Assembly (NCBI RefSeq): GCF_017104565.1
Contig: NZ_JAAGPD010000002.1
Coordinates: forward strand, 1 to 64,000
Reading direction: 5' to 3'
Source of the DNA: Paraburkholderia sp. Tr-20389
Lineage (GTDB): Bacteria > Pseudomonadota > Gammaproteobacteria > Burkholderiales > Burkholderiaceae
Length of the DNA: 64,000 bases
Below, piece by piece: positions 5,942 to 52,248 of the stretch. Under the pieces are notes generated by a model that saw only the letters and a list, made by a program, of their open reading frames with translations, was not told where the DNA came from and searched no databases. A program made the position numbers and the translations under genes. Each line of letters opens with the position of its first letter. Position 1 is the first letter of the stretch.

Positions 5942-8362
5942 ATGTCCAAGCAACCTGAAACCAAGCCAATATCGACGGCCGCCCGCGTCGGCCTGATACT
6001 TGCCGGCGCAATCGGCCTGCTGCTCGGCCTGTACTTCGCGATCGGCGGTGCGCTGCTCATCGCCCGCGGAGGCACGTGGTACTACCTGCTGATGGGCCTC
6101 GCGGTCTGCGCAACGGGCATTCAGCTCGCGCGCCGCAAACCCGCCGCCTGCGTGATCTTCGCGATCGTGATCGTGGCGACCGTGCTGTGGGCCGTCTGGG
6201 AAAGTGGCTTCGACTTCTGGCCGCTGCAGGCGCGCATCTTCATGTTCACGATGATCGGCATGTTGCTCGCGCCCGTTTATCCGATGCTGCGCGGCTTCGC
6301 AGGTCTGCGCCCCGCGAAGGGCGCCGCGTGGACCGCGGGTCTCGTGCTGCTCGCGTGCAACGCGCTGTTCGTGTACGGCATGTTCGTTCCGCACGGCACG
6401 TTCGGCACGGAATCGGCGGCGGCGCTGGGCAAACACGATGCCGGTACGGGCGACTGGTCAGCCTATGGGCACTCGGCCGGCGGCGACCGCTTCGCAGGCG
6501 CGACGCAGATCGATCGCGACAACGTGAAGAACCTGCAGGTCGCGTGGACCTACCATACGGGCGACGTGCCTGTCAGCCCGTCGGGCGGCGGCGCGGAAGA
6601 CCAGGAGACGCCGCTGCAGATCGGCGACACGCTCTACGTGTGCTCGCCGCACAACACGGTGATCGCGCTCGACGCTGCGAACGGCCATGAAAAGTGGCGC
6701 CACGAATTCCCGACGAAGACGACAGTCTGGGTGCGCTGCCGCGGTCTCGCGTACTTCGACGCAACGAAGCCGCTTCAGCAGCCCGCAGTCACGGGTTCGA
6801 CGCCCGTCACGCCCGTCGCGCTGCCGGACGAACACGCTGCATGCCGTCGCCGTATCTACATGAATACGATCGACGCGAAGCTCGTGGCCCTCGACGCGGA
6901 CACGGGCAAGCTCTGCGCGGACTTCGGCGAGCAGGGCATCATCGACCTCAAGGCGGGGCTCGGCAGCGCGGCAAGCCCGCTGTACGAACTGACATCGCCG
7001 CCGACTGTCGCGGGCACGACGGTGGTCGTCGGCGGCCGGGTCGCCGACAACGTGTCGCTCGACATGCCCGGCGGGGTGATTCGCGGCTTCGACGTGATGA
7101 CGGGTGCAATGAAATGGGCATTCGATCCGGGCAATCCGCAGGACAAGCATGCACCCGCACCCGGCAAGACGTTCGTGCGCTCGACGCCGAACGTGTGGGC
7201 GCCGATGTCGTACGACGCCACCTCGAATACGGTGTACATGCCGGTCGGCAGCGCGGCGATCGACTTGTGGGGCGTGAAGCGCACTGAGCTCGACGAGCAG
7301 TACGGCGCGTCGATTCTCGCGCTCGACGCGACCACGGGCGCTGAAAAGTGGCACTTCCAGACGGTCCATCACGACCTGTGGGACTACGACGTGCCGATGC
7401 AACCGACGCTCGTCGATTTCCCCGTCGACGGCAAGAACATTCCCGCGCTGATCGTCGGCACGAAGATGGGCCAGCTGTTCGTGCTCGACCGGCTGACGGG
7501 CAAGCCGCTCACGAAGGTGGTCGAACAACCCGTCAAGTCCGCGACCATTCCCGGCGAGCCGTATGCGAAGACGCAGCCCCTGTCGGTCGGCATGCCGCAG
7601 ATCGGCGCGAATGTGCTGACGGGCGCGGACATGTGGGGCATGACGCCCATTGACCAGATGATGTGCCGCATCGTCTTCCACGGCATGCGCTATGACGGCC
7701 TGTTCACCGCGCCCGATACGGATACGTCGCTGAGCTTTCCCGGCTCGCTCGGCGGGATGAACTGGGGCGGTCTGTCGTACGATCCGAACTCGCAGATGAT
7801 CTTCGCGAACGACATGCGCCTCGGGCTGTGGGTCCATCTCGTGAAGGAAGAGAAACGCGGCGGCCAGTCGAACGGCAACGAAGCGGTGAATGCAGGCATG
7901 GGCGCCGTGCCGCTCGGCGGCACGCCCTATTCGGTGACGAAGGACCGCTTCTTCTCGCCGCTCGGCATTCCGTGTCAGAAGCCGCCGTTCGGCAGCCTCA
8001 CGGCCATCGATCTGAAGACGCGCAGCGTCGCGTGGCAAGTGCCGCTCGGCACGGTTCGCGATACGCGCCTGTGGGGCGTGCAGATGCACATGCCCACCCC
8101 GATCGGCATGCCGACCATCGGCGGCTCGCTGAGCACGGGCGGCGGCCTCGTCTTCTTCGCTGCGACCCAGGACTACTATCTGCGTGCGTTCGACAGCTCG
8201 ACGGGCAAGGAAGTCTGGAAGGCGCGTCTGCCCGTCGGCAGCCAGGGCACGCCGATGAGCTACGTGATCAACGGCAAGCAGTACATCGTGATCTCGGCGG
8301 GCGGCGCACGCCAGTCGCCGGATCGCGGCGATTACGTGATCGCCTACGCGCTGCCGCAGTAA
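5942..8362 (+). CDS. Membrane-bound PQQ-dependent dehydrogenase, glucose/quinate/shikimate family
   Basis: 806 residues. The first 140 hold five hydrophobic segments (the ubiquinone-linked membrane anchor); the rest is a periplasmic eight-bladed PQQ propeller. WTYHTGD, GTPMSYVINGKQYIVISAGG and the active-site region TVHHDLWDYDVP with a following K in GTKMGQLFVLDR fit membrane glucose dehydrogenase. Several runs differ from Escherichia coli Gcd, whereas the paralog at 34539 matches Gcd closely, so this copy may oxidise another polyol, quinate or shikimate. It passes electrons to ubiquinone from the periplasm. The ATG used (MSKQPETK) fits family length better than one 36 bases upstream. A porin gene follows. 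Confidence 0.85.
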   Translation: MSKQPETKPISTAARVGLILAGAIGLLLGLYFAIGGALLIARGGTWYYLLMGLAVCATGIQLARRKPAACVIFAIVIVATVLWAVWESGFDFWPLQARIFMFTMIGMLLAPVYPMLRGFAGLRPAKGAAWTAGLVLLACNALFVYGMFVPHGTFGTESAAALGKHDAGTGDWSAYGHSAGGDRFAGATQIDRDNVKNLQVAWTYHTGDVPVSPSGGGAEDQETPLQIGDTLYVCSPHNTVIALDAANGHEKWRHEFPTKTTVWVRCRGLAYFDATKPLQQPAVTGSTPVTPVALPDEHAACRRRIYMNTIDAKLVALDADTGKLCADFGEQGIIDLKAGLGSAASPLYELTSPPTVAGTTVVVGGRVADNVSLDMPGGVIRGFDVMTGAMKWAFDPGNPQDKHAPAPGKTFVRSTPNVWAPMSYDATSNTVYMPVGSAAIDLWGVKRTELDEQYGASILALDATTGAEKWHFQTVHHDLWDYDVPMQPTLVDFPVDGKNIPALIVGTKMGQLFVLDRLTGKPLTKVVEQPVKSATIPGEPYAKTQPLSVGMPQIGANVLTGADMWGMTPIDQMMCRIVFHGMRYDGLFTAPDTDTSLSFPGSLGGMNWGGLSYDPNSQMIFANDMRLGLWVHLVKEEKRGGQSNGNEAVNAGMGAVPLGGTPYSVTKDRFFSPLGIPCQKPPFGSLTAIDLKTRSVAWQVPLGTVRDTRLWGVQMHMPTPIGMPTIGGSLSTGGGLVFFAATQDYYLRAFDSSTGKEVWKARLPVGSQGTPMSYVINGKQYIVISAGGARQSPDRGDYVIAYALPQ

Positions 8363-10394: not shown

Positions 10395-11228
10395 TCACTG
10401 CTCAGCGAAACCGAACAGCTGTCGCGGCGTTTCCCACTGAATCTGACGCCTGACTGCCGCGTCCGGCACGATCTGTTCGAACAGTGTCAGCAAGGGTCCA
10501 TAGTCGAGCCGCTCGGGCGCGCGCAAGAACGGCCAGTCGGAACCCCACACGCAGCGTTGCGGACCGAATGCGCGAAGCAGCGCATGCGCAAAGGGCCATG
10601 CGTCCTCATACGGATGCGCGTGCCGCGAATACTTTTGCCAGCCCGACAGCTTGACGCTCGCGCGGCCGCTGTCCGCGAGCCGCAGCAGCGCCTGGAAGCC
10701 GGGCTGCAGGATGCCCGCATCGATATCGGGCCGGCCGCCGTGATCGATCACGAGTCGCGCTTCCTGCCGCGCGAGCCACGGTTCCAGCGCGACCATCTGA
10801 TCGCCGCAGACCTGAATCTGCGCGATCATCCCGAGATCCGCCAGCGACGCAAAGAGCGGGCCCGCGTCGAGCACGAGATCGACGCCCTCCATCGCCGGAT
10901 TGAAGGCCACGCCTGCCACACCCGCGCGATGCAGCGCTTCGAGTTCGCCCCGGCCGATCGCGTTATCGACGACGGCAATGCCGCGAAAGCGGCCTTCGTA
11001 GCGCTCCAGCGCATCGAGCAGGCAACGGTTGTCGGTCCGGTAGCCGCTCGTCGGCCCGACGAGCAATGCATGTCGCACGCCGTATGCGTCCATCACGCGA
11101 ACGAACTGCGCGGCGGTGCCGATCTCCTGAAGCGCGGGCCGGTACATCGTGTCCGCGCGGTAGGGAAAGCGGACAGGATCGAAGATATGGCAGTGGCAGT
11201 CGATCTTGTCTTCGTCGAATACGCTCAT
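10395..11228 (-). CDS. Amidohydrolase-family (TIM-barrel) hydrolase
   Basis: 277 residues. The metal-binding start DCHCHIFDP, the later RLVIDHGGRPD and the final CVWGSDWPF are the hallmarks of the amidohydrolase_2 group that includes LigI-like lactonases and 2-pyrone-4,6-dicarboxylate hydrolases. A hydrolytic or decarboxylating step on a small organic acid or lactone is likely. The start (MSVFDEDKIDCHCHIFDP) leaves 134 bases to the divergent LysR gene, a typical LysR-regulated arrangement. The AKR gene lies 39 bases downstream on the same strand and may be co-transcribed. Confidence 0.85.
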   Translation of the reverse strand: MSVFDEDKIDCHCHIFDPVRFPYRADTMYRPALQEIGTAAQFVRVMDAYGVRHALLVGPTSGYRTDNRCLLDALERYEGRFRGIAVVDNAIGRGELEALHRAGVAGVAFNPAMEGVDLVLDAGPLFASLADLGMIAQIQVCGDQMVALEPWLARQEARLVIDHGGRPDIDAGILQPGFQALLRLADSGRASVKLSGWQKYSRHAHPYEDAWPFAHALLRAFGPQRCVWGSDWPFLRAPERLDYGPLLTLFEQIVPDAAVRRQIQWETPRQLFGFAEQ

Positions 11229-11362
11229 CAGATGTTTCCGTGTCCGGATCGCCGCGGCTTGCGGCACGAAGAGTCTAATGGCTCGACGTTTCGCTGTCGT
11301 ATGCTCCGTTTGCGCTACCCTATAACTTTTTGTTAATACCCGGCAAGGGTCACGGAAGAGCG

Positions 11363-12280
11363 ATGCGTTTCAAGCTGCGGCAGATGGAAGTGTTTCGTGC
11401 GGTGATGCTGACGGGCTCGATCAACGCGGCGGCCAAGATGCTGTATGTGTCGCAGCCGGCCGTCAGCAAGCTGGTGGCGCACACCGAGACGACGCTTGGC
11501 CTGCGACTCTTCGAACGCGCCAAGGGCCGCCTGATCCCGACGGCGGAAGCGCAGGCGCTGTTTCGCGAAGTCGAGCAGGTCTATCAGTCGGCGTTGCGCG
11601 TCGACGAGTTCGCGCGGGCTCTCGCGCTTGGACCAGCGAGTCTGTTGCGCGTCGCGTGCAGCCCGTCGCTTGCACCCGCCGTCGTCGCGCCTGCCATCGT
11701 CGAACTGAAACGTCAGTTGCCGGGACTCAGCGTCGACTGGCATACGGCGCTCATGGCCGACATGCCGCTCGAAGTGCTGAGCAAGACCGTCGACGTCGCC
11801 GTGACGTCGCTGCCGATCGAGCACGAGCATCTCGAAGCCGTGCCCTTCATGCGCGGCCACATGGTGTGCGCGTTGCCGCCCGATCATCCGCTGGCCCGCC
11901 GCGAACGCATCGCGCTAGCGGACCTGAAGCACGAGCCGATGATCCTGTTCCGGCGCGACATTCCGTTTGGCACGATGATCGTTCGCGCGTGCCAGCAGGC
12001 CGATGTCGAACTGACCTCCGTGGTGGACGTGACGCGCGCCGATCAGGCGCTCGCGCTCGTGCGCGGCGGCCTCGGGCTTGCGATCGTCGACGAGTTCGCG
12101 ACACGCAACGTCGATTGCATCGTGCGGCCGCTCGTCGAGAACCTCGAAATGGTATCGACCTTCGTCTATTCGAAGTTCTCGCCGCCTTCGCGCAGCGCGA
12201 TGGCGTTGATGGAAGCCGTGTGCCGGCGCGCGGAGGAACTGGGCAGACGGATCGGCAGCATGCCGGACCAACCGGTCTGA
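11363..12280 (+). CDS. LysR-family transcriptional regulator
   Basis: 305 residues. Residues 1-60 are the helix-turn-helix (MRFKLRQMEVFRAVMLTGSINAAAKMLYVSQPAVSKLVAHTE); the remainder is the effector domain, with DHPLARRERIALADL and LVRGGLGLAIVDEF. The start is set by GGAAGAG three bases before the ATG. The protein resembles regulators of the NocR/OccR-like branch. It is divergent from the amidohydrolase, its probable target along with the downstream AKR gene. Confidence 0.9.
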   Translation: MRFKLRQMEVFRAVMLTGSINAAAKMLYVSQPAVSKLVAHTETTLGLRLFERAKGRLIPTAEAQALFREVEQVYQSALRVDEFARALALGPASLLRVACSPSLAPAVVAPAIVELKRQLPGLSVDWHTALMADMPLEVLSKTVDVAVTSLPIEHEHLEAVPFMRGHMVCALPPDHPLARRERIALADLKHEPMILFRRDIPFGTMIVRACQQADVELTSVVDVTRADQALALVRGGLGLAIVDEFATRNVDCIVRPLVENLEMVSTFVYSKFSPPSRSAMALMEAVCRRAEELGRRIGSMPDQPV

Positions 12281-41712: not shown

Positions 41713-42058
41713 TGCTCACACTCTACGCGCCATTGGTATTCAAACCTTTCAACGTCTGTTGACCGATTCCCCCTGCTGGGCCGAAGCTGATTATGGTTGA
41801 CTGAACCGGCGGTTTATCAGTCAGCGTCCTATTTCTGTCCCGTTTCCAGCCCTTATATCCGGCTATATTTTTCACGGTTCAAAGAGTCTTAATGTCAGCG
41901 CGACACCTTGCACCCGGCGCGACTCGCATCAATGGCAGCAGATCAGGGAGATCCCGCCGCGCGGCTGCATCCGTCGGCTGTCGCCGTGCGTACAAAGGGT
42001 ATGACGCGCCGCCGGTCTCATCGTCCGCTATCGGCCCGTCGCTGAGGGAGATCGCGCA
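41713..42058. other. 346-base region before the FAD oxidoreductase operon
   Basis: No gene seen. It contains the ECF-type promoter at 41966-41992. TTATATCCGGCTATATTTTT near 41850 is AT-rich and could hold another promoter, but no clear pair was identified. Confidence 0.5.
41966..41992 (+). promoter_or_regulatory. ECF-sigma promoter, copy 1 (FAD oxidoreductase-DUF1365-CFA operon)
   Basis: TGCATCC, 16 bases, CGTA. The same pattern with the same spacing occurs three more times in the island, each before an operon. It lies 66 bases before the ATG of the first gene, leaving a leader of about 60 bases. Confidence 0.75.
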
Positions 42059-43357
42059 ATGGATGTGCAGACGGCCACCTGTCCAGTTTCGCCCGGCAGT
42101 CGCGTCGCTGTCGTGGGCGCCGGTATTGCCGGGCTCGCGAGTGCGTATCTGCTCGCCCGCCGCCATCGCGTGACCCTTTTCGAAGCGTCGGGCTATGCCG
42201 GCGGCCACACGAATACCGTCGACGTCGAACTGGACGGCCTCACCCATCCCGTCGATGCCGGCTTTCTCGTCTTTAACGATCGCACCTATCCCAACCTGAT
42301 CGCCCTCTTCGACGAGCTTGGCGTCGAGTCACACGAAAGCGACATGACATTTTCCGTCTCGCTCGATCATGGCCGGCTCGAATGGGCCGGCACCAATCTG
42401 AACACCGTGTTCGCGCAGCGGCGCAATATGCTCTCGCCCAGCTTCCTGGCCATGTTGCGCGACATCATGCGTTTCAACTCGGCGGCTGAAACGCATCTCG
42501 CAGCGGCGGCCGCCAGCGGATGCTCGGTGGACGACCTGCTGACGGAAGGACGTTACGGCGCACCGTTCCGGCAGCACTACCTGTTGCCGATGGCAGCCGC
42601 GATCTGGTCGTGTGCGACGTCCGACGTGCTGCGCTTCCCCGCCGCGACCTTTTTGCGCTTCTGCCTGAACCATGCACTGCTGCAGGTCAATCGCCGTCCA
42701 CGCTGGAAAACAGTCGCAGGCGGCGCACGCGAGTACGTGCGCAGGATCGTCGCCACACTGGACGACGTTCGGACGAACGCGCCCGTCTTCGCGGTGCGCC
42801 GCACGCAGGATGGCGTCCTGATCGCGAGTGGATCAGGATGGGAGCGCTACGACGCCGTCGTTCTCGCCACGCACGCGCCCGATACGCTGCGTCTTCTCGA
42901 AGACCCCGGCGAGGACGAACGTGGTGTGCTCGGTGCGATTCGCTATCAACCCAATGTCGCGTGGCTGCACACCGACGCGGCATTGCTCCCGCGCCGCGAG
43001 CGGGTATGGTCCGCGTGGAACTATGTGTCGCAAGGCGCAAACAGCATGCGGCCGGTCTGCGTGAGCTATCTGATCAACCGTCTGCAGCCGTTGCAGTTCA
43101 GGAGCCCCGTAATCGTGACGCTCAATCCTTCACGACCGCCTTCACACGAAACGATCCTTAAGCGCTTCGACTACGATCATCCGCTGCTCGACAGCGCGGC
43201 CGTTGCTGCTCAAACTCACCTCCCTTCGTTGCAGGGCGTGCGGCGCACGTGGTTCGCGGGCGCATGGGCGGGCTATGGCTTTCATGAGGACGGGCTGAAG
43301 TCGGCGCTGCGCGTTGCGTGCGACTTCGGCGTCGAACCCGCATGGTCCGTGCGATGA
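42059..43357 (+). CDS. FAD-dependent amine-oxidase-like oxidoreductase of a fatty-acid-modification operon
   Basis: 432 residues. The FAD site is VAVVGAGIAGLASAYLLARRHRVTLFEAS with GGHTNTVDVELDG, followed by VDAGFLVFNDRTYPNL, and the C-terminus FAGAWAGYGFHEDGLKSAL closes the FAD domain. Proteins of this kind are regularly found with DUF1365 and cyclopropane-fatty-acid synthase genes in proteobacteria, often under stress sigma factors; they probably oxidise a modified acyl chain. The stop overlaps the DUF1365 start (ATGA). First gene of the operon, behind the ECF promoter. Confidence 0.87.
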   Translation: MDVQTATCPVSPGSRVAVVGAGIAGLASAYLLARRHRVTLFEASGYAGGHTNTVDVELDGLTHPVDAGFLVFNDRTYPNLIALFDELGVESHESDMTFSVSLDHGRLEWAGTNLNTVFAQRRNMLSPSFLAMLRDIMRFNSAAETHLAAAAASGCSVDDLLTEGRYGAPFRQHYLLPMAAAIWSCATSDVLRFPAATFLRFCLNHALLQVNRRPRWKTVAGGAREYVRRIVATLDDVRTNAPVFAVRRTQDGVLIASGSGWERYDAVVLATHAPDTLRLLEDPGEDERGVLGAIRYQPNVAWLHTDAALLPRRERVWSAWNYVSQGANSMRPVCVSYLINRLQPLQFRSPVIVTLNPSRPPSHETILKRFDYDHPLLDSAAVAAQTHLPSLQGVRRTWFAGAWAGYGFHEDGLKSALRVACDFGVEPAWSVR

Positions 43358-44151
43358 ACGGGACATCATCCAATCAGGCAGCATGGCTGCTGTCTGGTCA
43401 CGTTGCTCACGAACGGATGCACCCCGTGCGTCACCGTTTCGTCTATCCCGTGTTCTGCATTCGATGCGATCTCGCGAGGCTTCCGGAACTGGATTGCTGG
43501 TGGCTGGGCGTCGATCGTCTTCGACCGCTGAGTCTGATGAGGCGCGACTATGGCGCATGCGACGGCACCGATCCGCTCGCGTGGATACACGGCAAGTTCG
43601 CAGACGCAGGCGTCGACCTCGACGGCGGCTCTATCTGGCTGCAAACCTTTCCACGCATATTCGGCTACGCGTTCAACCCGGTCAGCTTCTGGCTCTGTCA
43701 CGACCGTGACGGCAATCTGCGCGTCTTGCTCGCCGAGGTGCGCAACACATTCGGCGAGCGCCATTCGTATGTGCTCAAAGCAGCGGACAACCGTCCTGTC
43801 GACGCGAATACCCAACTCGTTTGCACGAAGACGCTGCACGTGTCTCCGTTTTGTCGCGTCGAAGGCCACTATGTCTTCCGCATCCGCGAGAGTGCGCACG
43901 CATCCTCGATCTCCATCGACTATCACGATGCGCAAGGGCTCCTGATCCGCACGGCCATTTCGCTCGACAAACACCCTCTTACACGCGCCAGTGCGTTGCG
44001 CGCGCTCGCACGGCAACCGCTTCTCACGGTCGGCGTGATCGTGCGCATTCATTGGCAGGCGCTGCACCTGTGGCTCAGAAAGGTGCCCTTTCACGGCAGA
44101 CAACCGCCATCGCCTCACTCTCATCAAACAACAACCAACGAGGAATCGTGA
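43354..44151 (+). CDS. DUF1365-containing protein
   Basis: 265 residues. LLSGHVAHERMHPVRHRFVYPVFCIRCDL, FPRIFGYAFNPVSFWLCHDRDGNLRVLLAEVRNTFGERHSY and VSPFCRVEGHYVFRI are the DUF1365 hallmarks. The family is of unknown biochemical function but nearly always sits between an FAD amine oxidoreductase and a CFA synthase, as here. Translation is coupled to the preceding gene by an ATGA overlap, and the CFA gene starts two bases after its stop. Confidence 0.9.
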   Translation: MNGTSSNQAAWLLSGHVAHERMHPVRHRFVYPVFCIRCDLARLPELDCWWLGVDRLRPLSLMRRDYGACDGTDPLAWIHGKFADAGVDLDGGSIWLQTFPRIFGYAFNPVSFWLCHDRDGNLRVLLAEVRNTFGERHSYVLKAADNRPVDANTQLVCTKTLHVSPFCRVEGHYVFRIRESAHASSISIDYHDAQGLLIRTAISLDKHPLTRASALRALARQPLLTVGVIVRIHWQALHLWLRKVPFHGRQPPSPHSHQTTTNEES

Positions 44152-44153
44152 CC

Positions 44154-45365
44154 ATGACGCTTCAGCGCGCCTTCTATGCCGCGGGCGGTGCGTCTGCTTT
44201 TGCCCGGCTGTTTCTCGCGTTGCTGAGCCGCGTGTGCGTCGGCCATCTCGTTCTGACGACGCCCGGCGGCCAGCAACGCGTATTCGGCGACCCGCATGCT
44301 CATCCGGGCGCGCAACTCATCCTGCGAGACTGGCGCGCGTGTCGCGCAATCCTTTTGGCAGGCGACATCGGTTTTGCCGAAGCGTACCGTGCGCGGTGGC
44401 TCGACACGCCCGACATCGTCGCGCTGCTGAGGCTCGGCATCCGCAATGAGGCTGCGTTGCCGCGCACCGTGGCGGGCAGCATGCCGGCACGGCTTTTCTA
44501 TGGATTGCGGCACTGGCTGCGCCCGAATACGCGGCGTGGCAGCCAGCGTAACGTGCACGCGCACTACGATCTCGGCAATCCGTTCTACGCACTGTGGCTC
44601 GACCCGAGCATGACCTATTCGAGCGCGCTGTTCGGGGGCGATGCCGACCTGACGCTCGACGATGCCCAGGCGGCAAAATATCAGCGCATCGTCGACGTGT
44701 TGCAGTTGCGTGCCGGAATGCGCGTGCTGGAGATCGGCTGCGGCTGGGGCGGCTTCGCGCTGCACGCCGGCCGTCTGGGTATCCGCGTGCATGGCGTGAC
44801 GATTTCCGGGGCACAGTACGAATGGGCGCGCGAGCGCGTGGCGCAAGCCGGACTCGGCGATCTCGTCTCGATCGAGTTGCGCGATTATCGGGACTTGCGT
44901 GGTATCTATGACGCGGTAGTGTCGATCGAAATGTTCGAGGCCGTGGGAGAACGCTACTGGCACACCTTCTTCACTGCGCTGAAACGCCTGTTGAAGCAAG
45001 ACGCGCGCGCGCTCGTCCAGTCGATCACGATCGACGACTCGCACTTCGCCGCTTATCGTTCTTCCAGCGACTTCATCCGCGAATACATCTTTCCGGGCGG
45101 CATGCTGCCGGGCGCCGAACACTTTCGGCTCGCGGCGAAACGCGCGGGCATGGAGTCGGTCGAGTCGCTATCGTTCGGAAGCGACTATGCGCGCACGCTG
45201 CGATGCTGGCATGAGCGCTTCGAGGCGAACCTCGAAGCCGTGCGCGCGCTCGGCTTCGACGATCTTTTCATTCGCACCTGGCGGCTCTATTTTGCGTATT
45301 GCGAGGCAGGTTTCGCCGAACAGCGCACGGACGTCAGGCAGTTCGTGCTCACTGCCGCCGCGTGA
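44154..45365 (+). CDS. Cyclopropane-fatty-acyl-phospholipid synthase, copy 1
   Basis: 403 residues. HAHYDLGNPFYALWLDPSMTYSSALF (137-160) and the SAM motif VLEIGCGWGGFALHAG (191-206) are typical, followed by SIEMFEAVGERYW and EYIFPGGMLPGAEH of the CFA family. It transfers a methylene or methyl group from SAM to the double bond of unsaturated acyl chains in phospholipids. CGAGGAA is the ribosome binding site. Last gene of the operon. Its N-terminal extension of about 120 residues is usual for full-length CFA synthases. Confidence 0.93.
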   Translation: MTLQRAFYAAGGASAFARLFLALLSRVCVGHLVLTTPGGQQRVFGDPHAHPGAQLILRDWRACRAILLAGDIGFAEAYRARWLDTPDIVALLRLGIRNEAALPRTVAGSMPARLFYGLRHWLRPNTRRGSQRNVHAHYDLGNPFYALWLDPSMTYSSALFGGDADLTLDDAQAAKYQRIVDVLQLRAGMRVLEIGCGWGGFALHAGRLGIRVHGVTISGAQYEWARERVAQAGLGDLVSIELRDYRDLRGIYDAVVSIEMFEAVGERYWHTFFTALKRLLKQDARALVQSITIDDSHFAAYRSSSDFIREYIFPGGMLPGAEHFRLAAKRAGMESVESLSFGSDYARTLRCWHERFEANLEAVRALGFDDLFIRTWRLYFAYCEAGFAEQRTDVRQFVLTAAA

Positions 45366-45384
45366 GCCGCGTTCAGAATGCGGC
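45366..45384. terminator. Hairpin between the convergent lipid operons
   Basis: GCCGCGTTC and GAATGCGGC pair with one G-T wobble around a very short loop, immediately after the CFA stop codon and 12 bases before the lipocalin stop on the other strand. No T run; it may act in both directions. Confidence 0.35.
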
Positions 45385-45396
45385 CCGCTTCAGGCG

Positions 45397-46008
45397 TCAC
45401 TTAGCCGGCGGCAGAAAGCCGGGCTTGCCGATCTGCTGCGGATGCTGCGGCACACGTCGAAAACGCGACGCGTCGAAGCCCAACGCATCGAGGCGCGCGA
45501 GCAGTGAACGATAGACGTCGTCGCTGACATCCGGTTCACGCGCGAAAATCCAGCCAAGGCTTTTGTCACGAACGCCGAGCAGCGTATAGCGATAATCGTC
45601 ATCGACGTAAAGCGTCAGTTGCGTCACGTGAACCGGCCAGACGATACGCACCTTCCACTCGCCGTTGCCACTGCCCGGCACCACGCTGTCGACGAAATGA
45701 AACTTCGACGGCGACGCGTCGAACGTCTTCGCATGCGCGGTGTAGCGGTCGTCGATCTTGCCGTCTTCGCGCAGCGACCAGTCCGTATAGCTGCCGACGT
45801 ATTTGCTTTCGAGGAAATACGGAATGATCGCGATCACATACCAGCGGCCCATGTAGCGCGGCAGATTGACGTTCGCGGGCCTCAGCGGCGCGTCGGCACG
45901 CGGATTGGGATTTGCCGGCGATTGCGAACATGCCGACATCGCAAAGGCCGCCGCCGCGACAGCAACCAGTGAACATACAGCTCGCGTATTCCACGTCGGC
46001 ATTTTCAT
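45397..46008 (-). CDS. blc: Bacterial lipocalin (Blc-type lipoprotein)
   Basis: 203 residues. A lipoprotein signal ends at AMSAC with C27 as the lipidated residue. The lipocalin fold starts with YMGRWYVIAIIPYFLESK (GxW motif) and continues with TDWSLREDGKIDDRYTA, VRIVWPV, YTLLGVRDKSLGWIFAREP, the Blc signature. These outer-membrane lipocalins bind fatty acids or lysophospholipids and respond to membrane stress. It follows the second CFA gene by four bases, the last gene of its operon. The lipid partners in the same unit fit a role in membrane repair. Confidence 0.92.
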   Translation of the reverse strand: MKMPTWNTRAVCSLVAVAAAAFAMSACSQSPANPNPRADAPLRPANVNLPRYMGRWYVIAIIPYFLESKYVGSYTDWSLREDGKIDDRYTAHAKTFDASPSKFHFVDSVVPGSGNGEWKVRIVWPVHVTQLTLYVDDDYRYTLLGVRDKSLGWIFAREPDVSDDVYRSLLARLDALGFDASRFRRVPQHPQQIGKPGFLPPAK

Positions 46009-46012
46009 CCCA

Positions 46013-47110
46013 TCACCGCTTCTCGAACAGGTAGTGGGCTACGCCCCACTCGTTGCCGTTTGCGTAGCCGAAGAGTTCGGCCACGCTCATGTAAAACATC
46101 CGCCAGCGCTGAAACCACAGTGCCGCGCTCTCCACACCATAGGCCAGGCCGAGCTCGGGCATCACCTGTGCGCGCCCCGCGTCGAGATTCGCCAGCCAGT
46201 GCTCTGCCGTGCGCGCGTAATGCGCGCCGCCGATCCACCATTGCCGGTCGATGCGCAGGTCATTCTGAAAGTGCTGCAACAGCGCTTCCGAAGGCATCGT
46301 GCCGCCCGTGAAGAAGTACGTCGACATCCAGTCCGTCGCATCGCGGGTCTGAAAATGCCAGGCCATCGTCCGATGCGCGAAGATATGGACGAAGAGCTTG
46401 CCGTCGGGGCGCATCCAGCGCGCAATACGTTCGAGCAGCAACCCATAGTTCTTCATATGCTCGAACATCTCGACGGATAGCACGCGGTCGAAATAGCCGG
46501 TGCGCAACCCATCTTCGAATTCGAACTGCACGACGTTGCCCGTTACGACGCGCAGATTCGTGATGCCGGCCGACGCTGCTCGCGCCTCGATGAATTCACG
46601 TTGACCGCGCGAGTTCGACAGGGCCACGATCCGCGCTCGCGGGTAACGCATCCCCAGCCACAACGCGAGCGATCCCCACCCGCAACCGAGGTCAAGTATG
46701 GTCTGACCGTCTTCGATCTGCGCGCGCTCTGCGTAGAGCGCGAGCATTGCCTGCTCCGCCTGTTCGAGCGTCTCGTCGCCGCGTGGGTAGAGGCAGCACG
46801 AATACTTCAGCCGCGGACCCAGATGTGCCTCGAAAAACGACGACGGCAACTCGTAGTGTTGCGTGTTCGCGGCGTCGGTCTCGATTGCGACGGGACTTGC
46901 GCGCAACTCGTCGATGAGCGCGCTGAACCGTTGCGAACGAAGCGCATGATCGAACGCACCTTCTTCGATCAGACGCTGCCGCATCAGCCGGCGCATGCCG
47001 AGGCGAATCAGACGATCCGGCACCCAGCCGCGCTCGCACGCATGGATCAGCCAGTCTTCGCAGGCGTTTTTCGGGTTGTCGATTGAAGGCCGGGTTACCG
47101 TGAATGACAT
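46013..47110 (-). CDS. CFA-type SAM methyltransferase, copy 2
   Basis: 365 residues. HYELPSSFFEAHLGPRLKYSCCLYP (85-109), ILDLGCGWGSLALWLGMRYP (138-157), VLSVEMFEHMKNY and FFTGGTMPSEALL are CFA-family motifs, but the protein differs strongly from copy 1 and lacks the usual long N-terminal domain. It is of the subgroup found with DUF1295 genes. It probably methylates fatty acyl chains in phospholipids. A GTG three codons upstream is an alternative start. 49 bases after the DUF1295 gene. Confidence 0.9.
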   Translation of the reverse strand: MSFTVTRPSIDNPKNACEDWLIHACERGWVPDRLIRLGMRRLMRQRLIEEGAFDHALRSQRFSALIDELRASPVAIETDAANTQHYELPSSFFEAHLGPRLKYSCCLYPRGDETLEQAEQAMLALYAERAQIEDGQTILDLGCGWGSLALWLGMRYPRARIVALSNSRGQREFIEARAASAGITNLRVVTGNVVQFEFEDGLRTGYFDRVLSVEMFEHMKNYGLLLERIARWMRPDGKLFVHIFAHRTMAWHFQTRDATDWMSTYFFTGGTMPSEALLQHFQNDLRIDRQWWIGGAHYARTAEHWLANLDAGRAQVMPELGLAYGVESAALWFQRWRMFYMSVAELFGYANGNEWGVAHYLFEKR

Positions 47111-47159
47111 GGCGTGCACCGTTCGCTTGAGTGGAATGCGTGCCGGGAATCAGTAGTAC

Positions 47160-47939
47160 TCAGCCGCGACGCGGCGGCCACGGTATCAACGCGCTGGTCT
47201 CACGCATGTACTCGGCGTAGCCAGGACGCGAATGGACCAGATGCGCTTCGAGCATCGGCACGCCGGACAGCTTCATCAGCAGCCATGCCATCAGCACGGG
47301 TGGAATCAGCGTCAACCATACCCAGGGCGAGCCGACCGAAAGCGCGACATACGCTACCCAGTGCAGGCATTCAAAAAAGTAATTCGGATGCCGCGAGTAG
47401 CGCCACAGGCCGGCGCGGCACACCTTTCCCCTATTCGCCGGATCGGCGACGAAGCGCCTGAGCTGGCTGTCCGCAATCGCCTCGCCGCCGACCGACGCGA
47501 ACCAGATCAGCGCCGCTATCGCGACCCATGCGGCGGAAGGTCTGTCCGCCCGCCACGCAGGCACAGCGAACGCAAGCGACAGCACGAGAGAGATGACAGT
47601 TTGCAGTTCGAGAAACCAGAACATCTTGCGCCCCGCGTCCGCGCCCCACTGCTCGCGGTATTGGTGATAGCGCGGGTCTTCCGGCTTGCCCGCGTTACGC
47701 CGCCACAAATGCCAGCCGAGGCGTGCGCCCCAGATGCCGCCGCCGATCGCGACGAGCACGCGGGCAAGCGGATCGCCGTTGCCCGCGATCCCATAGAACA
47801 GCGCGATCGTGCCCAGCGAGAAAGCCCATATCGGATCGATCATGCCGGCGTTCGCGCTCGTCCGCTGCCACACCCAGAAGGCCGCGAACAGCGCGACGAG
47901 CAACACGAACGCAATAGACGCAGCGACGACGGGCGACAT
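47160..47939 (-). CDS. DUF1295 membrane protein (steroid 5-alpha-reductase-like)
   Basis: 259 residues with six or seven membrane segments. The C-terminal RAGLWRYSRHPNYFFECLHWVAYVAL is the signature of the DUF1295/steroid 5-alpha-reductase C-terminal family, whose members act on lipid substrates with NADPH or methyl donors. AAGGAG upstream fixes the start; the in-frame sequence further upstream is the promoter region. First gene of the DUF1295-CFA-lipocalin operon, 50 bases behind an ECF promoter. Confidence 0.88.
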   Translation of the reverse strand: MSPVVAASIAFVLLVALFAAFWVWQRTSANAGMIDPIWAFSLGTIALFYGIAGNGDPLARVLVAIGGGIWGARLGWHLWRRNAGKPEDPRYHQYREQWGADAGRKMFWFLELQTVISLVLSLAFAVPAWRADRPSAAWVAIAALIWFASVGGEAIADSQLRRFVADPANRGKVCRAGLWRYSRHPNYFFECLHWVAYVALSVGSPWVWLTLIPPVLMAWLLMKLSGVPMLEAHLVHSRPGYAEYMRETSALIPWPPRRG

Positions 47940-47988
47940 CGACGACTCCTTGTAACGCGAGCTGGCAAGACTTCTATTTGGCAGGTTA

Positions 47989-48015
47989 TACGCGCCAAGA
48001 AGGCGCGTGGATGCA
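47989..48015 (-). promoter_or_regulatory. ECF-sigma promoter, copy 4 (DUF1295-CFA-lipocalin operon)
   Basis: On the minus strand TGCATCC, 16 bases, CGTA, followed by TAACC. It is 50 bases before the DUF1295 ATG. Same bases and spacing as the other three copies. Confidence 0.75.
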
Positions 48016-48123
48016 TTGCGGCAAATGTGCCGCAAACCATATGCCGTTGCGGAGGCCATGTCGCGGAATTGAATCGATTCGGCGCGGTTTGCCGCGTCGT
48101 TAGCCCGTGCAAGACTGTTGCGT

Positions 48124-49422
48124 TCAGCCGCGAAATGACTGCACGATCAGCACGATGTTCAGGCCCAGCACGACTGCCGTGCAAATCAGCGCACCCGCGT
48201 TTGTGACCATGCGATTGCGAAAACGCCCCATCACCGCTGTACGCGAGGTGAACCACACCAATGCGATCATCGGAACGGGCAACGCGACACTCAGCACGAC
48301 CTGGCTCAATACCAGCGCGCGTGTTGCGTCCACTCCGCATGCGACCACGACAAACGCGGGCGTCATCGTCACCAGCCTTCGAACGCAGAGCGGAGTATGA
48401 AAACGCACGAAGCCCTGCATGATCATCTGCCCTGCCATCGTCCCGACCACCGAACTCGATATGCCGGAGGCAATCAACGCGGCGAGGAACAATCCTGCTG
48501 CGGCGCTTCCGAGCAGTGGCGTGAGCGTGTGCCACGCCGTCTCGATCCTGACAATGTCCGGGTTTCCCTGATGAAACGCGCCCGATGCCATGATCACCAT
48601 CGCCATGTTGATGAGACCTGCCACGCCGAGTGCTGCGACCACCTCGAGATTCGAAAACTTCAGCAACGTCGAACGCTCGCGGTCGTTGCGCGCCGACACG
48701 CGACTTTGCATCAGCCCGGAATGCAGAAACAGCACATGCGGCATCACGGTCGCACCGACGATCCCCACCGCGAGCGTCAACGCATTGTTGTCGGGAATGG
48801 CGGGCGTAACGACGTGATGTGCGACCGCGCGCCAGCTTACTTGCGTCAACGTCAGTTCCGCGAGGTACGATAACCCGATCACGCCCACGAGCGCCGCGAT
48901 CGTGAGCTCCAGTGGACGAAAGCCGCGCTTCTCGAACTGCAACAGGCTGTAAGTAACAGCGGCCGTGATACCCATCGCCGGCAACATGGGCAGCCTGCAG
49001 AGCAGCGACACGCCGATCGAACCGCCCGTGAATTCGGCAAGATCTGTCGCCATCGCAGCCAGTTCACTGACCATCCACATGGCGATCACACAACGGTGCG
49101 GCAGGTGGTCACGGCACAACTCCGCGAGATTGCGCCCGGTGACCAGACCCAGTTTTGCCGACAGCGACTGAAACAGCATGGCAATCATATTTGACAGCAC
49201 GACGACCCACAGGAGCGCGTAACCATAGCCCGCACCCGCCTGGATGTTGGTGGCAAAATTGCCGGGATCGATATAGGCGACCGAGGCGACGATGGCAGGA
49301 CCGGCAAATGCGAGCATTGTGCGGGGACCGCCGCGTGCACCGTCGAGCGCCGCACGCATCGTCGTTCGCGAGCGCTCGGAGAGCGATGCGGGCACTGCGG
49401 TGCGTACAGCGATTCTGTTCAT
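48124..49422 (-). CDS. Nramp-family divalent metal (Mn2+/Fe2+) transporter
   Basis: 432 residues with 11 membrane segments. The metal-binding DPGN motif is at 52-55 (VAYIDPGNFATNIQAG) and the second motif is VMPHVLFLHSG (M-P-H). The family imports manganese or iron with protons. It lies 98 bases after the ferritin-like gene, but an intrinsic terminator lies between, and I see no clear separate promoter. Expression by partial readthrough, or by a promoter I cannot place, is inferred. Confidence 0.92.
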   Translation of the reverse strand: MNRIAVRTAVPASLSERSRTTMRAALDGARGGPRTMLAFAGPAIVASVAYIDPGNFATNIQAGAGYGYALLWVVVLSNMIAMLFQSLSAKLGLVTGRNLAELCRDHLPHRCVIAMWMVSELAAMATDLAEFTGGSIGVSLLCRLPMLPAMGITAAVTYSLLQFEKRGFRPLELTIAALVGVIGLSYLAELTLTQVSWRAVAHHVVTPAIPDNNALTLAVGIVGATVMPHVLFLHSGLMQSRVSARNDRERSTLLKFSNLEVVAALGVAGLINMAMVIMASGAFHQGNPDIVRIETAWHTLTPLLGSAAAGLFLAALIASGISSSVVGTMAGQMIMQGFVRFHTPLCVRRLVTMTPAFVVVACGVDATRALVLSQVVLSVALPVPMIALVWFTSRTAVMGRFRNRMVTNAGALICTAVVLGLNIVLIVQSFRG

Positions 49423-49460
49423 GGATGGTCCCTGGTCGTTGTTGCGCGCAAGACGGCGTG

Positions 49461-49497
49461 CAAAAAACAGCGGGCGAAACGCTGCACACCGCCCGCT
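49461..49497 (-). terminator. Strong rho-independent terminator between the ferritin-like and Nramp genes
   Basis: On the minus strand CAGCGGGCG, a 13-base loop, CGCCCGCTG, then TTTTTT. The stem is a perfect nine bases. It lies 24 bases after the ferritin-like stop and 38 bases before the Nramp ATG. Confidence 0.85.
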
Positions 49498-49520
49498 GCG
49501 CCAGCCGACGCAATGCGAAA

Positions 49521-50486
49521 TCACGCGCTCATATTGAGCGTGCCATTCACACCGTTCGGAAAGAACCCTCCCTTCATGGCCGCGGAGCTCGTCAGATACA
49601 CGATATTCAGCACGTTCGCGTAGTTGCGGCTGAACGCAAGGCCATTGCTGTCTAACGGGACGATGTTCGATGTATCGGCTGTGGCGCCGGAAATGCCCTG
49701 ATCATCGTGGCCATTGTTGTCAATGGCGTCGCGTGCTGCCGAAATCGCGTTGGCCGCCGACACCAGGCTCGTCATGTCGATACCTCTTGCATATAACGTC
49801 GTGCGCACGAGGCCCGCGTGATACGCCTCGGCCGCAAGTATGCCCGCCGCCGCTTCGAGAAACGTCTTGTTCGTGATCAACGGCGATGCGCCCTTGTAGG
49901 CAGTCACGCCCACGTCTTCGAAGATGAATGCGCCCAGCAGGAAGTTGTTGTCGCTAGCGTAGGGGTTGAATGCGGCTCCTGCGCCGACGAGTCCCGCAGC
50001 ACGCGCCGCGTTCGAGAACGCGCCGTTCGGGTCCGTGCCGCCGATGTCGATTGCAGGCTGCGCGACAGCCGCCGAGCCCAACGCACTACGCAGAAACGTG
50101 ACATGCTCGCGCTCGTCCTTTGCGATCTCGTTCGCGTAGGCTTTGACAACAGGATCCTGAAACGGTACCTGCTGGCCGGCAATCACACTCCCCATTGTCC
50201 CGACGCCCGTGGTCATTGAGGCGGGCAAGCCAGCACCCGTGGTCGCGTAACTGTAGAACTGCGATTCAAGATATTCGAGGTTGAGCGCAAAGTTGAGAAT
50301 CTCTGCATCGGTAGGCGCGGCGGCCGCACCGGCGTTGTTGCCCGATCCCCCACCACATGCGCTGATGATCGTGCCGCCCACCAGCCCCAGACCAAGACCA
50401 CCGGCGTTTCTGAAGAACTGTCGGCGGTTCCGGCGACGCTCGGCACGCCGGTCGAACGTATCGAGAAGTGCTTTCGCTTCTGACAT
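49521..50486 (-). CDS. Ferritin-like exported protein (Tat signal plus lipobox)
   Basis: 321 residues. The N-terminus has twin arginines (RRNRRQFFRNAGGLGLGLVGG) and a lipobox-like ISAC with C44, so export by Tat with possible lipidation. The mature part has the ferritin-like helices of the desiccation-related PCC13-62 group (EILNFALNLEYLESQFYSYA with E71 and E74; ANEIAKDEREHVTFLRSAL; AAGILAAEAYHAGLVRTTLY). A di-metal centre and a protective role against oxidants are possible. AAGGAG upstream. It is divergent from the sigma gene and has its own ECF promoter. Confidence 0.88.
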   Translation of the reverse strand: MSEAKALLDTFDRRAERRRNRRQFFRNAGGLGLGLVGGTIISACGGGSGNNAGAAAAPTDAEILNFALNLEYLESQFYSYATTGAGLPASMTTGVGTMGSVIAGQQVPFQDPVVKAYANEIAKDEREHVTFLRSALGSAAVAQPAIDIGGTDPNGAFSNAARAAGLVGAGAAFNPYASDNNFLLGAFIFEDVGVTAYKGASPLITNKTFLEAAAGILAAEAYHAGLVRTTLYARGIDMTSLVSAANAISAARDAIDNNGHDDQGISGATADTSNIVPLDSNGLAFSRNYANVLNIVYLTSSAAMKGGFFPNGVNGTLNMSA

Positions 50487-50588
50487 GACCCTGCTCCTTT
50501 CGATGTTCAGATCAACTCATGCAAATCACGGCATGAACGGAGACACGGACTTGTCACTGGCAGGCAACGGTCGCGTCTTCAACTGCAA

Positions 50589-50615
50589 TACGACGCGAAC
50601 TCGCGGGCGGATGCA
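50589..50615 (-). promoter_or_regulatory. ECF-sigma promoter, copy 3 (ferritin-like gene)
   Basis: On the minus strand TGCATCC, 16 bases, CGTA, followed by TTGC. It lies 103 bases before the ATG. Confidence 0.75.
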
Positions 50616-50758
50616 GCGCGCTACAACTATATTTTTTGCCGGGATCATCTGCAGTCCGATCGTCTTGGCAAGACATGCTTCGTCCGCATCGAATGCTGCA
50701 ATTCTGACTATCATCAGTCCAGGCTGTTGGGCAAAATTCCCGTATCCCTGACCGTTTT

Positions 50759-50785
50759 TGCATCCACGACACGTGCAGGCGCGTA
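50759..50785 (+). promoter_or_regulatory. ECF-sigma promoter, copy 2 (sigma/anti-sigma operon)
   Basis: TGCATCC, 16 bases, CGTA, followed by AAAA. It lies 145 bases before the sigma ATG and implies autoregulation. Confidence 0.75.
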
Positions 50786-50929: not shown

Positions 50930-51532
50930 ATGTCCTCAAGGCAGCCAAAGGATTTACGTGAACCATCGGGCGCGCCCAAGTCCGCGGATACCGCCGCGCG
51001 CGACGATCTGAACGGTATGCTGTCCGCCGTCGCTTTGCGCGATCGGGCTGCGTTCGAAACGCTTTATCGCCGGACGTCCCCGAAAATCTTCGCCATTTGC
51101 ATCAAGATACTGCGTGACCGATCAGAGGCGGAAGACACACTCCAGGACGTGTATGTCACGGCATGGAACCAGGCGGCAACGTTCAATCCGCAACTTTCGA
51201 GCACACTCACCTGGCTTGGCACGATAGCCAGAAATCGCGCAATCGATCGCATCAGGCGCCGCCACACGCAACCGCTCGATGAAACCTCTGCTGAAGAGAT
51301 CGTCGACGAATCACCGACACCTGCCGCCCTCGCGCAACTCAGCCAGGAGAGGCAGCGGCTCGAACGCTGTCTGCAAGCCCTGCCGGACGCGCAGCGGCAT
51401 GCCGTCAGGGAAGCGTTCTTTACGGGGTCTTCTTACGCTGAACTTGCCACACGCATGAGCGTTCCTCTGGGCACCATGAAAAGCTGGATCCGGCGCAGCC
51501 TGATGCAACTGAAAGCGTGTCTTGAACGATGA
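50930..51532 (+). CDS. ECF RNA polymerase sigma factor (SigK-like)
   Basis: 200 residues. Region 2 is FETLYRRTSPKIFAICIKILRDRSEAEDTLQDVYVTAW...TWLGTIARNRAIDRIRRR and region 4 is LPDAQRHAVREAFFTGSSYAELATRMSVPLGTMKSWIRRSLMQLKACL. With the downstream RskA-like gene it belongs to the SigK-like group. Four promoters with an identical pattern in the island point to its regulon. The stop overlaps the anti-sigma ATG (ATGA), so the pair is translationally coupled. The start ATG follows GGTGGA. Confidence 0.92.
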   Translation: MSSRQPKDLREPSGAPKSADTAARDDLNGMLSAVALRDRAAFETLYRRTSPKIFAICIKILRDRSEAEDTLQDVYVTAWNQAATFNPQLSSTLTWLGTIARNRAIDRIRRRHTQPLDETSAEEIVDESPTPAALAQLSQERQRLERCLQALPDAQRHAVREAFFTGSSYAELATRMSVPLGTMKSWIRRSLMQLKACLER

Positions 51533-52248
51533 ATACACCCCACTCTTCCGACGAAAACGATCTGCGCTGCGCGGAGTACGTACTAGGCGTGCTCGGCGAG
51601 AGCGAGCGCCGCGAGATCGAACTTGCGCTGCAGCAGGAACCGGGCATGGCGGCATCGCTGGCGCGCTGGCAATCGCGTCTGATGCCTTTGACGGAGGATC
51701 TGGAAGACGTGGTCCCGCCGGCCCACGTCTGGGATCGTATGCAATCTCAGCTGGGATGGGCACGGGCCGGGCGTCGCGCCGGATTGTGGCACAGCCTGTC
51801 GTTCTGGCGCTGGACGGGGTTGACGTCGGTCGTCGCGGCGTGCGCGCTGGCGATCGTGCTGACGCGTACCGTGCAATTGCACAACGCCGCCGCTCCCGCA
51901 GCGGGCGCGCAATACCTCGTCGCAACGCTGGAGCCTCAGGGTGTGGGCCCAAGCTGGACTGCCACCGTGGATTCGCAAAATGCGCAGATCGTCGTCGTGC
52001 CGCTGCGTGGCATTGCGATTGCGGCAACCAAGTCGACGCAATTGTGGATGATTCCGCAAGGCTCGAAGCCAATCTCGCTCGGTGTGATCGACACGCAGCG
52101 CCCAACGGTCGTGCATGTCGCGCAGGCGCAGCTTCAGAATCTCGGGCCGCAGACCTCGCTTGCCGTGTCACTCGAGCCCCATGGCGGATCTCCAACTGGG
52201 CAACCCACCGGACCAGTGCTCGCTGCCGGGCACATAGAGGGAATCTGA
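51529..52248 (+). CDS. Membrane anti-sigma factor (RskA-like)
   Basis: 239 residues. The cytoplasmic N-terminus (CAEYVLGVLGESERREIELALQQEPGMAASLARWQSRL) is an anti-sigma domain, residues 94-115 form one membrane helix, and the periplasmic C-terminus (WTATVDSQNAQIVVVPL, TKSTQLWMIPQGSKPISLGVI) matches the RskA C-terminal domain. It should hold the sigma factor inactive until regulated proteolysis. Coupled to the sigma gene by an ATGA overlap. Confidence 0.9.
   Translation: MNTPHSSDENDLRCAEYVLGVLGESERREIELALQQEPGMAASLARWQSRLMPLTEDLEDVVPPAHVWDRMQSQLGWARAGRRAGLWHSLSFWRWTGLTSVVAACALAIVLTRTVQLHNAAAPAAGAQYLVATLEPQGVGPSWTATVDSQNAQIVVVPLRGIAIAATKSTQLWMIPQGSKPISLGVIDTQRPTVVHVAQAQLQNLGPQTSLAVSLEPHGGSPTGQPTGPVLAAGHIEGI

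Follow-up and report, generated by a model that had tools for sequence, protein, structure and literature searches.

The window analysed here, comprising the first 64,000 nucleotides of contig NZ_JAAGPD010000002.1 of Paraburkholderia sp. Tr-20389, carries an island of lipid-related, ferritin-like/manganese and sigma factor operons in which a two-block motif, TGCATCC-N16-CGTA, stands before four gene starts. We are confident that this segment is a regulon of the SigK/RskA type, directed by an extracytoplasmic function (ECF) sigma factor, and that the four motifs are its promoters, driving the lipid, ferritin-like/manganese and sigma operons. The features of the island are as follows:

41966-41992, plus strand: probable SigK-type promoter P1 (TGCATCC-N16-CGTA), heading the operon for the flavin adenine dinucleotide (FAD) oxidoreductase, DUF1365 protein and first cyclopropane-fatty-acid-synthase-family (CFA) enzyme.
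42059-43357, plus strand: FAD-dependent oxidoreductase of the amine-oxidase family (Pfam PF01593; PDB 6f7v, 4e-43).
43354-44151, plus strand: DUF1365 protein, start codon uncertain (PF07103, 2e-75).
44154-45365, plus strand: CFA1, a CFA-family S-adenosylmethionine-dependent methyltransferase (PF02353, 1.5e-82).
45397-46008, minus strand: lipocalin, Blc-like (PF08212, 4e-26).
46013-47119, minus strand: CFA2, the second CFA-family methyltransferase, start perhaps ATG 47110 (PF02353, 2e-39).
47160-47939, minus strand: DUF1295 membrane protein, head of the DUF1295/CFA2/lipocalin operon (PF06966, 7e-62).
47989-48015, minus strand: probable SigK-type promoter P2 before the DUF1295 gene (motif match and conservation in the genus).
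48124-49422, minus strand: MntH, an NRAMP Mn(2+) transporter, start inferred (NCBIfam NF001923, 485 bits, over the cut-off).
49521-50486, minus strand: ferritin-like protein of the Ferritin_2 family (PF13668, 2e-44).
50589-50615, minus strand: probable SigK-type promoter P3 before the ferritin-like gene (motif match and conservation in the genus).
50759-50785, plus strand: probable SigK-type promoter P4 before the sigma operon, suggesting autoregulation (motif match; not universal in relatives).
50930-51532, plus strand: SigK-like ECF sigma factor with Cys147 and Cys197 (Pfam, PDB match and cysteine alignment).
51529-52248, plus strand: RskA-like membrane anti-sigma factor (PF10099, RskA_C, 83.7 bits, cut-off 29.4).

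The gene functions named in the initial annotation were confirmed by Pfam, as was the presence of an ECF factor and an RskA-like anti-sigma factor in the same segment, the former now being refined to SigK-like; the two genes (50930-51532 and 51529-52248) overlap. The closest PDB relative of the FAD protein is the amine oxidase LkcE. The ferritin-like protein starts with what reads as a Tat-like signal followed by a lipobox-like cysteine and contains two ExxH motifs, conserved in all 24 homologues that are 200 amino acids or longer (window included); a comparison with the PDB returned no match up to an E-value of 1. The mntH gene lies downstream of the ferritin-like gene and has no promoter motif of its own.

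A scan of both strands of the window found four exact copies of TGCATCC-N16-CGTA, at the places where the initial annotation had put them, with a chance expectation of 0.04 copies in 64 kb (100 dinucleotide shuffles, none of which reached four), which bears out its statement that the number is far above chance. There is no fifth exact copy, as had been judged by eye, and allowing one mismatch adds a single site at 8062-8088 on the minus strand. The 11 motif positions are identical in the four island sites and the 16 spacer bases differ between them. The motif ends 66 bases from the likely start of the FAD gene (ATG 42059), 49 from that of the DUF1295 gene (ATG 47939), 102 from that of the ferritin-like gene (ATG 50486) and 144 from that of the sigma gene (ATG 50930), in agreement with the 50-145 bases first proposed.

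Genome-wide, the pattern is not common: the 9.0 Mb contain eight exact copies, and a reversed control pattern is absent. The four copies outside the island each lie within an open reading frame (ORF) of 285-793 codons with a high proportion of G and C at third positions, so that every promoter-like exact copy falls in the island. The relaxed form GCATCC-N16-CGTA has 19 matches, 15 of them outside the island; 13 of these 15 fall within long ORFs, and the other two (L058 and L064) have neither ORF cover nor an ORF start within 350 nucleotides downstream. This screen by ORF position is crude, as it placed only two of the four island promoters (FAD and ferritin-like) before an ORF, counted the DUF1295 site among the covered ones and detected no ORF beginning downstream of the sigma site. 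One exact match inside an ORF, at 31414-31440 of contig C57 of genome G000, has the spacer TCTTCCGGCGGCAGGT; the match with this spacer recurs in many genomes among those listed and is a main source of background. The description of the regulon as self-contained stands for the exact promoter-like copies of this genome and fails for four close relatives (G001, G042, G053 and G083), in which the lipid operons lie on a different contig from the sigma gene.

Homologous islands were compared in two sets of relatives. The genus set comprised 98 genomes, in which the surroundings of the sigma and FAD genes were mapped; 22 of the genomes encode a close sigma homologue (E <=1e-40), 38 the FAD protein, 24 the ferritin-like protein and 53 an RskA_C domain. 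The named set comprised the best 80 of at least 432 relatives, corresponding to 79 distinct loci, of which one is titled Eremiobacteraeota and the rest are proteobacterial, including Paraburkholderia, Burkholderia, Caballeronia, Pandoraea, Rhodanobacter and Dyella. In the 79 named sigma loci (1.445 Mb) the motif with a spacing of 16 occurs 115 times, spread over 70 loci, with each of the other spacings from N10 to N23 accounting for 0-2 motifs and 300 permutations of the two motif blocks giving a mean of 0.62 and a maximum of 8. That the copies are chance repeats or parts of a repeated element deserves next to no credence: the genome has eight copies and half of these fall in coding sequence, which could be taken to favour it, yet only 0.04 are expected in the window, the spacer bases differ, and the same motif with the same spacing is found in other genera, so that the spacing and permutation controls refute it.

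The position of the motif is conserved as well. Scored from 420 nucleotides upstream to 60 nucleotides inside the estimated start, it recurs at the same spacing before the operon heads: in the genus set together with the window, 35 of 38 FAD genes have an exact copy and two a copy with one mismatch, the only FAD gene devoid of the motif being that of L051, where it follows CFA2. Likewise, 14 of 17 DUF1295 genes have an exact motif and three a one-mismatch motif, and the ferritin-like genes divide into 13 exact and 12 one-mismatch cases out of 25. Internal genes of all sets, even with one mismatch allowed, are not preceded by it (RskA 0/102, DUF1365 0/70, CFA2 0/47, MntH 0/30). Of 71 CFA1 genes one has an exact motif, that of L255, a locus in which neither FAD nor DUF1365 was detected; of 33 lipocalin genes one has it too, that of L262, where the rest of the cassette was not detected. 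In L271 the motif precedes a fatty-acid desaturase gene, which is the first gene of the cassette operon there, and the fasciclin genes of the named set all carry it (15 exact, 6 one-mismatch). In all 38 genus loci DUF1365 comes directly after the FAD gene, and the ferritin-like and mntH genes are adjacent in 23 of 24 loci (window counted). The mntH homologue of L041 (G078, 10500-11489) spans two frames, possibly because of a broken gene or a sequencing error. Contig C50 of G015 (L083) carries a tandem pair of motifs about 350 bases apart, with a similar pair on contig C58; the L083 pair precedes a small protein that by eye is predicted to be secreted and a lipoprotein-like protein with no Pfam match, and the genes behind these tandem motifs are possible further members of the regulon.

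The motif and the cassette also keep company with RskA. Of the 38 genomes that have the FAD gene, 37 also encode the RskA_C domain (intact in 36, interrupted in one), compared with 16 of the 60 genomes lacking the FAD gene; genomes with RskA_C (n=53) contain on average 6.4 exact motifs, compared with 2.8 in those that lack it (n=45). Among the 24 FAD-gene genomes that have no close sigma homologue, 22 carry a 39-42% identical sigma factor whose gene adjoins an RskA_C gene, these pairs lying elsewhere in the genome. The conservation of motif, spacing and position and the co-occurrence with SigK/RskA-like pairs lend strong support to the initial proposal that the local ECF sigma factor uses these sites as its promoters; judged by sequence comparison, the four motifs are very probably shared promoters of the local SigK-like sigma factor. 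We infer that the sigma factor of the window recognises them, that the operons are built as listed above, and that the FAD/DUF1365/CFA/DUF1295 cassette would be controlled by a SigK-like sigma factor.

Of the 22 loci of the distant sigma factors (L212-L233), 18 carry a motif copy (16 exact, 2 variants) directed away from the sigma gene, approximately 110-125 nucleotides upstream of the start of sigma homology. No conserved ORF was seen behind it in 17 aligned loci, in which the promoter aligns well and the whole stretch has a mean column identity of 47%; this divergent motif may yield a non-coding or antisense transcript or a small RNA of the regulon. Sigma factors of 84-87% identity are found on Paraburkholderia plasmid records, and contig C3 of G053 has two copies (230276 and 297903), 83 and 84% identical to that of the window, each with an RskA.

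As to the kind of sigma factor, an RskA-type anti-sigma gene adjoins it, a ChrR cupin domain was not detected by Pfam, and the best PDB match is SigK of M. tuberculosis (4nqw, 7e-32). Cys147 and Cys197 align with both redox-cysteine positions of SigK and are invariant in 22 of 22 genus sequences (window included); since the spacing of 50 is that of the 4nqw alignment, the columns were taken as SigK 133 and 183, and the two residues are the putative equivalents of C133 and C183. Both cysteines are present in five aligned sigma factors of 39-42% identity and absent from two ChrR-paired sigma factors and three other paralogues (L234, L236 and L238). In PMC7509140, equivalents of SigK C133 and C183 are reported for 94% of ECF18, 56% of ECF19 and <2% of other ECF families, and the two cysteines are described as important for SigK-RskA; RskA itself is placed in an anti-sigma group that regulates ECF19 (PMC7406223).

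Several observations weigh against the interpretation as a SigK/RskA-type regulon. The genus and named sets share genomes and their loci are related, so that the counts are not independent and the spacing and conservation numbers show constraint, not independent events; the Fisher and Mann-Whitney values computed for the genomes disregard this dependence. In the named loci 44 of the 115 exact copies, the desaturase site of L271 among them, do not precede a queried gene (the other 71 do), and the motif was missing before 17 of 32 FAD genes (14 exact, 1 one-mismatch), 13 of 32 DUF1295 genes (16 exact, 3 one-mismatch) and two of seven ferritin-like genes (2 exact, 3 one-mismatch). Autoregulation of the sigma gene is not general: in the genus set, which includes a few paralogues, 10 of 24 sigma genes have an exact motif, 6 a one-mismatch motif and 8 none, and the 82 matches of the named set, again with some paralogues, comprise 22 exact, 8 one-mismatch and 51 negative cases and one that was too short. 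A Paracoccus locus (L330) has a SigK-like pair (RskA_C), a fasciclin gene and the cassette, with neither the exact nor the core motif. Furthermore, two genomes, G096 and G020, retain the FAD operon and its motif with no sigma factor detectable at E 1e-22; G096 (L137) also lacks RskA_C and has an altered DUF1295 promoter (TGCcTCC), and in G020 (L138 and L211) a stop interrupts the RskA-like frame and both promoters are intact. These two genomes, together with the many sigma genes that lack a motif, would suit a different regulator, such as a repressor, an activator or a second ECF sigma factor, with the SigK-like gene merely one of its targets. We consider this unlikely, as the motif has a two-block form at one fixed spacing, is oriented toward operon heads and is associated with RskA-bearing genomes, and as the -35 base lost from the DUF1295 site of G096 is what would be expected after loss of the sigma factor, although the sites of G020 are intact. 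The motifs of both genomes are apparently orphaned promoters. Finally, the sigma factor scores below the cut-off of the NCBIfam SigK model (PRK09646, 157.7 vs 226 bits), a model passed by the sigma factors of Tsukamurella (242.8 bits) and Streptomyces NBC_00069 (265.9 bits), so that it is SigK-like and not SigK in the strict NCBIfam sense, and Rhodobacter RpoE (2q1z, 1e-29 in the PDB search) is nearly as close to it as SigK.

This last similarity raises the alternative of a singlet-oxygen system of the ECF11 (RpoE-ChrR) type, the more so as sigma-ChrR pairs, too, have this lipid cassette as a neighbour: FAD/DUF1365/CFA together with a photolyase gene in Pseudoalteromonas, and FAD plus DUF1295/CFA/lipocalin in Rhizobium pRL12. 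By contrast, the anti-sigma factor of the window has RskA_C and no ChrR cupin, which both ChrR proteins possess; the SigK cysteines of its sigma factor are missing from the two ChrR-paired sigma factors; and a scan of the two ChrR loci found no TGCATCC-N15-17-CGTA. On the basis of anti-sigma domain, cysteines and promoter, an ECF11/ChrR identity was rejected as very improbable. In the Rhizobium pRL12 locus (L324) the pattern TGATCC-N18-TAAG, which we take to be ECF11-like, is found at 4065-4092 on the minus strand, approximately 30 nucleotides before folE and not before the FAD or DUF1295 genes. Furan-fatty-acid genes are reported to belong to the ECF11 core regulon and to be needed for ChrR turnover (PMC6852236), and in Aeromonas the FAD/DUF1365/cfa cluster and the ChrR anti-sigma gene are both reported to be lowered by riboflavin (PMC10012899).

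Cassettes of this type are also found with SigK outside the proteobacteria. On a Tsukamurella plasmid the gene order is FAD, DUF1365, methyltransferase, lipocalin, sigK and anti-sigma, and on a plasmid of Streptomyces NBC_00069 the sigK-anti-sigma pair is divergent from FAD, DUF1365, CFA, DUF1295 and hydrolase genes; both anti-sigma factors have the RskA_C domain. CCCATCC-N16-CGAA directly precedes the operon of Rhodococcus and that of Tsukamurella, and in Streptomyces NBC_00158 it precedes the FAD gene; by eye NBC_00069 has only CCAATCC-N16-CGAA. The form CATCC-N16-CG(A/T)A occurs in three of four actinobacterial loci, one of the three with an adjacent SigK, and as the N16 count (3) is no higher than the N15 count (3), the case for the actinobacterial motif rests on position. 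The Rhodococcus and NBC_00158 stretches contain no annotated sigma gene. A Pantoea plasmid locus has the exact motif before a fasciclin gene.

The mycobacterial genes Rv0449c-Rv0446c presumably form a FAD/DUF1365/CFA/DUF1295-type cassette. Like the window, the SigK/RskA regulon of mycobacteria and the mpt83-sigK-rskA cassette of Yersinia pair a two-cysteine SigK-type ECF factor with RskA_C, and in Mycobacteriales the regulon is reported to be autoregulated from the Rv0449c promoter (PMC7509140). The window differs from these known systems in its promoter (-35 TGCATCC, -10 CGTA), in having its lipid cassette divided between two operons, each with its own promoter, in the presence of a second CFA enzyme, and in the inclusion of the ferritin-like/MntH operon. 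A fasciclin domain (mpt83-like) was not found in the genome of the window, and motif-bearing fasciclin genes do occur in Paraburkholderia relatives; since cassettes lacking fasciclin occur beside SigK, this target was not treated as defining. Regulons of the SigK/RskA type are widespread, and with its missing fasciclin gene, its sigma factor below the cut-off and its ferritin-like/MntH arm, the present one appears to be a local variant of a type already known. Neither the promoter nor a SigK regulon of Burkholderiaceae was found described in the literature searched at the level of titles and abstract openings.

In the mechanism that we propose, RskA, anchored in the inner membrane, would hold the sigma factor until a putative envelope or redox signal releases it, the two conserved cysteines of the sigma factor suggesting the latter. 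RNA polymerase with the freed sigma factor would then read the promoters of the FAD oxidoreductase/DUF1365/CFA1, DUF1295/CFA2/lipocalin and ferritin-like/MntH operons, as well as that of the sigma operon itself, giving positive feedback. The possible import of manganese, which the initial annotation had included, is retained in the regulon only by operon structure, since mntH neighbours the ferritin-like gene; no motif of its own supports it. The presumed output is a modification of unsaturated membrane acyl chains by methylation plus oxidation or reduction, unsaturated chains being suggested as substrate by the desaturase gene that heads the operon of L271. The lipocalin may handle the lipid, and the exported di-metal ferritin-like protein and the uptake of manganese may handle iron and manganese. 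Overall, the regulon would protect against membrane oxidation, which is the most economical reading, with stress and lipid product both presumptive. A 10-methyl fatty-acid pathway of the BfaA/BfaB type was considered and not adopted.

The FAD/DUF1365/CFA cassette is found in further settings: beside a MerR-family gene on a Klebsiella plasmid and beside a helix-turn-helix gene on a Cupriavidus plasmid, with neither an annotated sigma gene nor the TGCATCC-CGTA motif in either stretch. It is conceivable, if speculative, that the cassette is a portable membrane-oxidation module captured independently by ECF11-ChrR, SigK-RskA and MerR sensors, that in the SigK branch its product, besides protecting the membrane, is a component of the sensor and frees RskA on being oxidised, much as furan fatty acids are required for ChrR turnover, and that the ferritin-like/MntH arm simultaneously swaps iron for manganese.

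Most work on SigK-type control concerns tuberculosis bacteria; the regulon would provide a counterpart in a soil bacterium, whose promoter is sharply defined and whose set of targets is compact. It suggests the lipid cassette, instead of the antigen genes, as a widely shared target, to which an iron/manganese arm would have been added here, and it allows both signal and lipid product to be tested in SigK-type systems outside mycobacteria.

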